Below the pieces are notes generated by a model. It was not told where the DNA came from. It saw only the letters and a list, made by a program, of their open reading frames with translations, and did not search any database. Shown here piece by piece: positions 28,807-45,003 of a DNA stretch of 64,000 bases. The DNA comes from Halothiobacillus sp. 15-55-196 (GTDB lineage: Bacteria; Pseudomonadota; Gammaproteobacteria; Halothiobacillales; Halothiobacillaceae): NCBI GenBank assembly GCA_002282715.1, contig NCKC01000007.1, forward strand, positions 1 to 64,000, written 5' to 3'. Numbering within the stretch: the stretch's first letter is position 1; each line of letters starts with the position of its first letter. The position numbers and the translations under genes were made by a program.

Positions 28807-28950
28807 GAGCGAATATCCTGAACGGAGCCGTTAAATGCGGTCCGAAAATAGTGGTCTTTAGACAAAAGGTGGCTGATTTTAAGCCATTTCGAGCTTAAAT
28901 GCGTCCTTGGGAAGCTAAGACGGCTGCATGCGACAAATTAGTGAACCGAA

Positions 28951-29121
28951 GGGCACTTCGAAATACCCGTGATTCGTCATTCCCACGAAAGCGGGAACCC
29001 AGAAAAATCAAGGCACTGGATTCCCACCTGCGCGGGGATGACGGCTTCAGTTGCATCGTGCAGCAGCGCGGTGAGGGTGGATTGCCGCCTACACGGGAAT
29101 GACTGGTTTTTCAAGCTTCCC
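28951..29121. repeat. Family A mobile repeat (copy 1, 171 bp) with 4-bp target duplication
   Basis: The element runs from GGGCACTTCGAAATACCCGT to CAAGCTTCCC and is flanked by CGAA on both sides (28947-28950 and 29122-29125). Its ends are imperfect inverted repeats. The interior holds palindromic modules of the type ATTCCC...GGGAAT. It is homologous, in inverted orientation, to the copy at 44253 and has about 61 extra bases caused by a repeated internal module. Its right end forms the last ten codons of the membrane thioredoxin gene. The preceding 140 bp (28807-28946) shows nothing further. Confidence 0.85.
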
Positions 29122-44148: not shown

Positions 44149-44211
44149 GATATTAACAAAAAAATACCTGAGTAAAATCCGGAGGATCAAACAACAAGCG
44201 AGGGACTCATC

Positions 44212-45003
44212 ATGTATACCGCCTCTCTAATACCGACATGGTCAAGAGTTAAGGGAAGCTCGAAAAACCCGTCATTGCCGCGTAGGCGGGAATCCAGCGA
44301 CTTGATTTTTCTGGGTTCCCGCATTCGCGGGAACGACGAATCACGGGTATTTCAAGGTGCCCTTAAATCCACCACCCGGTCAATGGCTACACTGGCACTG
44401 ATTGCAGCAATGTTTGGTGCTGCATCCAATGTGTTTGCGCAAGGGCAATATCAACCACTAAACGATAATGCGGATGGACAGTATCAAATCGATCCGGATC
44501 ACTCTCAGGTGTTTTTTACGCTTGGACATGTCGGCATCGCACCATTTACCGGACGGTTCAACAAAATCAGTGGCCACTACACCATCGATAGCAAGCATCC
44601 GGGCAAAAACAAGGCTGAGATCAGCATTTCGGTCGACAGCATCGATACCAACCTGGCCTTGCGCAATGAACACTTGCTCAGCAAGGAGTTCTTCGATGCC
44701 AAGAACTATCCTGAGATCACCTTCACCAGCACAAGCTTTGTGCCGAACAAGCAGGGTGGCGGCAATCTGCATGGGCTCATGAGTTTTCACGGTGTGACTC
44801 GCCCGGAAGTATTTCATGTCGAAAAGGTCGGTGCCGGGGAAGTGGCTTATCTGCCCAAGCCTTGGGGTGGCTATCTGAGCGGTTTTGTTGCCACAACCAC
44901 GATCAAGCGTAGCGATTTCGGCCTGATGGCGTATCTCCCGCAAGGCCTTTCTAACGACGTTCACATCACCGTCAATATCGAAGGAATTCGAGCCAAGCCG
45001 TAA
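44212..45003 (+). CDS. YceI-family periplasmic protein with repeat-derived N-terminal insert
   Basis: YceI proteins are lipocalin-like periplasmic proteins that bind isoprenoid-type lipids. The mature domain is complete (YQIDPDHSQVFFTLGHVGIA, ISVDSIDTNLALRNEHLLSKEFFD). The ATG at 44212 has GAGGG seven nt upstream. Residues 14-51 (starting KGSSKNP, ending QGAL) are encoded by an inserted family A repeat, which places the hydrophobic signal core (MATLALIAAMFGAASNVFA, from residue 58) far from the start. Removing the 114 nt restores MYTASLIPTWSRV joined to KSTTRS and a normal signal peptide. An ATG at 44383 could serve instead but has no ribosome-binding site. Confidence 0.88.
   Translation: MYTASLIPTWSRVKGSSKNPSLPRRRESSDLIFLGSRIRGNDESRVFQGALKSTTRSMATLALIAAMFGAASNVFAQGQYQPLNDNADGQYQIDPDHSQVFFTLGHVGIAPFTGRFNKISGHYTIDSKHPGKNKAEISISVDSIDTNLALRNEHLLSKEFFDAKNYPEITFTSTSFVPNKQGGGNLHGLMSFHGVTRPEVFHVEKVGAGEVAYLPKPWGGYLSGFVATTTIKRSDFGLMAYLPQGLSNDVHITVNIEGIRAKP
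44253..44362. repeat. Family A mobile repeat (copy 2, 110 bp) in yceI, TTAA target duplication
   Basis: The element begins GGGAAGCTCGAAAAACCCGT and ends CAAGGTGCCC. It is flanked by TTAA at 44249-44252 and 44363-44366. Its ends are imperfect inverted repeats (GAAA and ACCCGT in the same relative places), and internal modules (TGCCGCGTAGGCGGGAAT; TTCCCGCATTCGCGGGAA) are palindromic. Element plus duplication is 114 bp and has no stop codon in the yceI frame. Its reverse complement aligns almost end to end with copy 1. Confidence 0.88.

Follow-up and report, generated by a model that had tools for sequence, protein, structure and literature searches.

Halothiobacillus sp. 15-55-196 is represented by a draft genome (G000) of 2,297,135 bases in 146 contigs, with an estimated completeness of 99.46%. 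The window, meaning the whole stretch of 64,000 nucleotides that was analysed, contains an open reading frame whose product matches the YceI family in Pfam (PF04264, E 5.6e-41, 140.8 bits against a cut-off of 23.7); its score against NCBIfam PRK03757 is 133.7 bits, below the cut-off of 232. The first-pass annotation of this DNA had claimed a 110-bp element with GGG...CCC ends, lying between two TTAA copies inside the yceI frame, and this can be read directly at 44249-44366 (Table 1). Element and duplication together measure 114 bp, which is exactly 38 codons, and the open reading frame runs through them without a stop, adding residues 14-51 as the annotation had it. When the 114 bp are removed, a protein of 225 residues results, the same length as in the relatives described below. 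The hydrophobic core of the filled YceI, which had been placed at residue 58, does begin at Met58 in the computed hydropathy profile.

Table 1 Features of the yceI locus and of the candidate source element
Feature	Position	Strand	Remarks
yceI reading frame	44212..45003	+	263 aa with the insertion; no stop through the element
Leader with GAGGGA-type ribosome-binding site 5' of the yceI start	44200..44211	+	read directly; nearly identical in G009, similar in G001
Left TTAA copy of the 4-bp target duplication	44249..44252		single TTAA in G009 and G001
MITE, 110 bp, GGG...CCC; terminal inverted repeats around two inverted CGTC-type REP units	44253..44362	+	
Right TTAA copy of the 4-bp target duplication	44363..44366		
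Signal-peptide core and cleavage region, Met58 to Ala76	44383..44439	+	hydropathy maximum at residue 58
IS5-family insertion sequence copy	L129 997-2273 (G009)		encodes its transposase

Empty yceI sites in related genomes

YceI was searched for in 57 genomes, G000 included. Relatives of some kind are present in 25 of the 57, and close orthologues only in the sister genome G009, a single contig of 2,582,886 bases, and in G001. The mature part of YceI is 99% identical to that of G000 in G009 and 94% in G001, and the next best match among the 57 genomes is 47%. Both close orthologues have the same start (ATGTATACCGC...), a length of 225 residues and one TTAA at the insertion point, and the element is absent from both. 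The comparison with close relatives that the annotation had proposed thus finds single TTAA sites at the matching junction, where a different junction or the lack of a single TTAA would have spoken against an insertion. Without the 114 bp, G000 yceI differs from that of G009 at 23 of 678 nucleotides (18 silent and 5 replacement codons) and from that of G001 at 58 of 678 (35 silent, 19 replacement). Among the genomes compared, the insertion is specific to G000.

Since G000 is a draft of 146 contigs, the insertion might be imagined as an artefact of assembly. We consider this very improbable: the yceI copy lies inside a contig of 122,678 bases, it is at most 96% like any other copy among the matches listed, and it has an exact duplication of its own in unique yceI sequence. 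Comparison with the empty relatives confirms a real insertion of a mobile repeat.

The repeat family and a candidate transposase

The element belongs to a repeat family, with 20 copies in G000, at least 71 in G009 and 2 in G001 in DNA searches; most of the matches listed for other genera cover a REP unit only and not the ends. Exact 4-bp duplications flank 53 of the 93 copies in the three genomes (12 of 20 in G000, 39 of 71 in G009, 2 of 2 in G001). Further copies have duplications with one mismatch (5 in G000, 16 in G009), and two or more mismatches are found at 3 of 20 and 16 of 71 copies, respectively. As a control, four-base words at each of two offset positions were compared for the 91 copies of G000 and G009, and none match. 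The palindrome and the REP dimer inside it move as one 110-bp unit, because the 4-bp duplications flank the whole. Sixteen of the 20 G000 copies share flanking sequence with a G009 copy (L076 and L089 on one side only). The yceI copy is among the four without a flank in common with the G009 copies compared. A second, degraded copy lies in the window itself (28949-29047, strand -), 88% identical over part of its length and without a clean duplication. At positions about 1231-1615 of L117 (G009 514220-517237), element ends are spaced ~92 bp apart in an apparent head-to-tail array.

The annotation had treated TTAA as the target of the element, and this does not hold. The targets are AT-rich yet varied, and TTAA accounts for only 3 of the 53 exact duplications; TTAA is therefore no special target, and we rejected a TTAA-specific element of the piggyBac type. 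Judged by the flanks, mobility as a RAYT-mobilised REPIN, which would have a linked RAYT tyrosine transposase and lack a constant duplication, is not favoured either, because the duplication is constant at 4 bp.

By sequence, the element is the Halothiobacillus 'CGTC-1 REP dimer in a palindrome' of Di Nocera et al. 2013 (PMC3733652), who describe CGTC-1 REP dimers in 41-bp palindromes in Halothiobacillus neapolitanus. When compared by eye with the palindrome consensus printed there, our element shows the same outer palindrome and the same inverted pair of CGTC-tagged REP units inside it. The consulted passages of that paper treat the palindrome as sequence that holds dimers, and name no target duplication or transposase; unlike in that account, palindrome and dimer here form a single unit that has IS5-like ends and is flanked by 4-bp duplications. 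In the literature searched, we found no account in which the CGTC-1 repeat duplicates its target, is assigned a transposase or inserts into genes, although the supplement on intragenic REPs of PMC3733652 might contain such cases. One of the Coxiella MITEs described in PMC5896051 contains a GTAG REP.

The unit has the features of a miniature inverted-repeat transposable element (MITE). It is short and present in many copies, encodes no transposase, has terminal inverted repeats (its two ends are alike at 17 of 20 bases) and makes target site duplications of a constant 4 bp. A related autonomous element is present in the same genomes. A search of G009, G000 and G001 with PF01609 gave seven matches, two of which belong to identical insertion sequences of 1277 bp in G009, with the ends GGGCACCTCGAAAAACC and GGGCACCTCGAATAACCCGA. 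Their transposase belongs to the IS5 family (NF033581, 307.9 bits against a cut-off of 140, besides the PF01609 match). In G000, 100%-identical ends of this insertion sequence lie at the termini of four contigs (C33, C39, C48 and C84). The MITE ends agree with the ends of the insertion sequence at 15-17 of 20 bases, and the best match of the MITE right end elsewhere in it is 13 of 20. The terminal inverted repeats are thus alike in the two elements, but the likeness is confined to the ends, and the insertion sequence, unlike the MITE, carries a transposase. Judging from these ends, a DDE transposase of the IS5 family probably mobilised the MITE in trans.

Matching 4-bp flanks are found at neither of the two full-length G009 copies. 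In a further genome, G015, the left flank of the insertion sequence ends in AATG and the right flank begins with AATG, on different contigs, which would fit a 4-bp duplication. The flanks at L151, L157 and L162 of G015, where the contigs break inside the insertion sequence, would fit a composite element bordered by AATG on its two outer sides. A plasmid collection searched for further full copies gave only a 78%-identical relative from Thauera, which keeps a right end matching the MITE but showed no left end. Additional MITEs of this IS group are perhaps represented by short sequences at L108 3211-3337 (G009) and L135 1248-1335 (G000), whose terminal inverted repeats are similar.

Probable translation through the repeat, and export of YceI

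The yceI start at 44212, its leader and a purine-rich site before it are conserved across G000, G009 and G001. In codons 2-19, against an expected silent fraction of 0.28-0.30, we counted 6 silent and 3 replacement changes between G000 and G001 (p 0.024) and 7 and 5 between G009 and G001 (p 0.028), two comparisons that share G001 and are not independent; the third pair, G000 and G009, has 2 and 2 (p 0.34). In the predicted fold, the start at 44212 is unpaired with a value of 0.68 with the element and 0.65 without it, and pairing of the start region is much the same. The RNA of the element alone has a predicted fold of -51 kcal/mol, and such a strong fold could slow ribosomes. The conserved upstream start and the codon pattern make translation through the repeat from 44212 likely. 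The claim that this start is used and the repeat translated is thereby upheld in part: the start with its purine-rich site is conserved and silent changes are favoured in two of three pairs, but the support comes from sequence.

An alternative is that translation starts downstream, at the ATG at 44383 or at a rare start inside the element, in which case the repeat would be a 5' leader and not protein. This ATG is kept in all three genomes, and PMC3733652 cautions that the true start may in many cases lie downstream of a REP found at a predicted N-terminus. However, a ribosome-binding motif before the ATG at 44383 is absent by eye, the sequence around this ATG is more paired in the predicted fold (unpaired value 0.40, compared with 0.68 for 44212), a protein started there would have no basic n-region, and the upstream codon pattern favours coding in two of the three pairs. 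We regard a downstream start as unlikely. We also rejected the idea that the element brings yceI a mobile ribosome-binding site: the motif in this copy is AAGGTG, and 20 nt separate the end of the element from the next in-frame ATG.

If the repeat is translated, the n-region of the signal peptide is lengthened to 57 residues from 19, with a net charge of +7 in place of +3. The annotation had claimed such a long basic n-region and possibly altered export. The first part stands, conditional on translation, but a changed YceI export is unproven, because the insert lies ahead of the core, which does not differ between the filled allele and the derived empty one, and would be lost in normal cleavage. 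We see no sign of selection for the inserted peptide: in the yceI frame, each of the four differences between this copy and the family consensus read from the copies changes an amino acid.

The long n-region with its charge of +7 and the strong hairpin in the early coding region could instead mean that the insertion damages yceI, which would be translated with much reduced export or synthesis and be heading for loss; G000 has yceI in a single copy (one match) and hence no second copy of the gene. We find this slightly less probable than a downstream start. The remaining frame is intact, and the changes that can be assigned to the G000 branch are 0 replacement and 5 silent (3 replacement and 4 silent changes are ambiguous); the insertion may, though, be too young for damage to have left a trace in this count.

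The reading we favour, with a probability of roughly 0.78, is that a MITE inserted into the n-region with the frame kept, and that translation from 44212 yields an extension that is cleaved off and tolerated as a passenger. A non-autonomous 110-bp MITE, moved, as we infer, in trans by the IS5-family enzyme, inserted where yceI encodes the n-region of its signal peptide, and 4 bp were duplicated. The frame was kept because 110+4 is divisible by three and no stop lies in frame. Translation would most likely still begin at 44212 and give a precursor with a basic n-region of 57 residues instead of 19. We infer that the extension would then be lost through Sec export and cleavage by signal peptidase. 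The insertion, which is carried by one genome only (G000), would be tolerated as a passenger and persist, because the extension would be removed and mature YceI left unchanged.

Frame neutrality, other in-frame insertions and precedents

The element consensus is free of stops in three of six frames. Adding 4 to the copy length gives a multiple of three for 14 of the 20 copies in G000, for 34 of the first 40 in G009 and for one of the two in G001. The 114-bp footprint and the three stop-free frames make the element largely frame-neutral. A full-length consensus copy inside a gene has about an even chance of an open frame, so the in-frame state is in itself unsurprising and tolerance is what matters.

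We scanned 93 joined empty sites for open reading frames of at least 130 codons with more than 10 codons before the junction and more than 20 after it. Sixteen rows cross the junction, nine running through the filled site and seven truncated. Six of the nine open rows, representing four distinct insertions, were confirmed with empty orthologues; the other three (L082, L128 and L052) lack this confirmation and were left out of the count. The orthologue comparison covered the open rows, and the seven truncated rows may include gene-breaking insertions. No Pfam match was obtained for L060, L091, L087, L047, L066 or L082. At L054 1460-1915 (G009), an integrase-like frame (PF00589) enters the element and stops 13 codons beyond; it is possibly a broken gene.

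Besides yceI, the confirmed insertions comprise three cases. In a tesA-like GDSL esterase, assigned by Pfam (NCBIfam PRK10528 scores 193.7 bits, below the cut-off of 270), the element is common to G000 and G009, and G001 is empty. It follows MKFLWLL, behind a conserved AGGAGG and ATG, and lies 5' of a hydrophobic stretch. In a conserved protein whose phosphoglycerate-mutase-like NCBIfam matches are weak and far below cut-off, the element is present in G009 and G000 in the opposite orientation after MNKLHLSILGLHPEPRF...; the open frame has 469 codons in G009 (filled) against 431 in G001 (empty), and the G000 copy runs off its contig. A putative exported protein, with no match in Pfam or NCBIfam and an uncertain start codon, is filled in G009 (385 codons) and empty in G000 and G001 (351 and 346). 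As we read the sequences, the insertions in yceI, the esterase and the putative exported protein, three of the four, lie just before a hydrophobic signal core; the hydropathy profile was computed for yceI alone.

At L094 (G009, ~1605426-1605537), L084 (G000) and L110 (G009), the right end of the element lies 0-2 nt 5' of the ATG of long frames, with GAGGTG or GAGGTA three or four bases before that end. At these loci the element end may act as a mobile ribosome-binding site.

Fusions of such repeats with proteins are already known from Rickettsia and enterobacteria. Rickettsia palindromic elements (RPE) insert in frame into proteins (PMC10969869, PMC2229807). Like the element described here, they are short palindromic repeats with open frames that lie in frame in conserved genes, as shown by empty orthologues for our four insertions, and the insert can be tolerated, as in gmk (PMC2229807). 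Host and sequence differ, and the target duplication, marked as unknown for RPE in PMC2229807, is clear for the Halothiobacillus element. ERIC, YPAL and NEMIS are likewise MITEs that fuse in frame to proteins, and YPAL is said to supply part of one Yersinia signal peptide (PMC2229807). YPAL thus helps to form a new signal peptide, whereas the Halothiobacillus element would lengthen an existing n-region for which the empty allele is known. A 2024 review (PMC10969869) considers similar protein change conceivable in other prokaryotes. To these known fusions yceI adds a well-controlled example. Apparently new, relative to the literature searched, are the nature of the CGTC-1 unit as a transposon that duplicates 4 bp, its IS5-like ends and its repeated presence in what we read as signal-peptide n-regions.

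We tentatively propose, as a possibility we hold at somewhat worse than even odds, that the unit is a frame-neutral, protein-coding element for which n-regions are a safe harbour, its 38 residues being translated, tolerated and cut off, and that the CGTC-REP spreads as IS5-family cargo. If so, export signals would lengthen by transposition in a free-living bacterium, and the spread of this REP type would be explained by its carriage between the ends of an IS5-family transposon. For a mobile repeat in an exported protein, the yceI locus offers a clean before/after pair: two relatives carry the empty allele, the repeat belongs to a named family, a transposase can be proposed for it, and three other insertions run parallel. 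It is also a warning to gene callers that such N-termini should not be trimmed automatically. The tolerance of long n-regions, and the puzzle, already in print, of CGTC REPs without a transposase, have now become testable.
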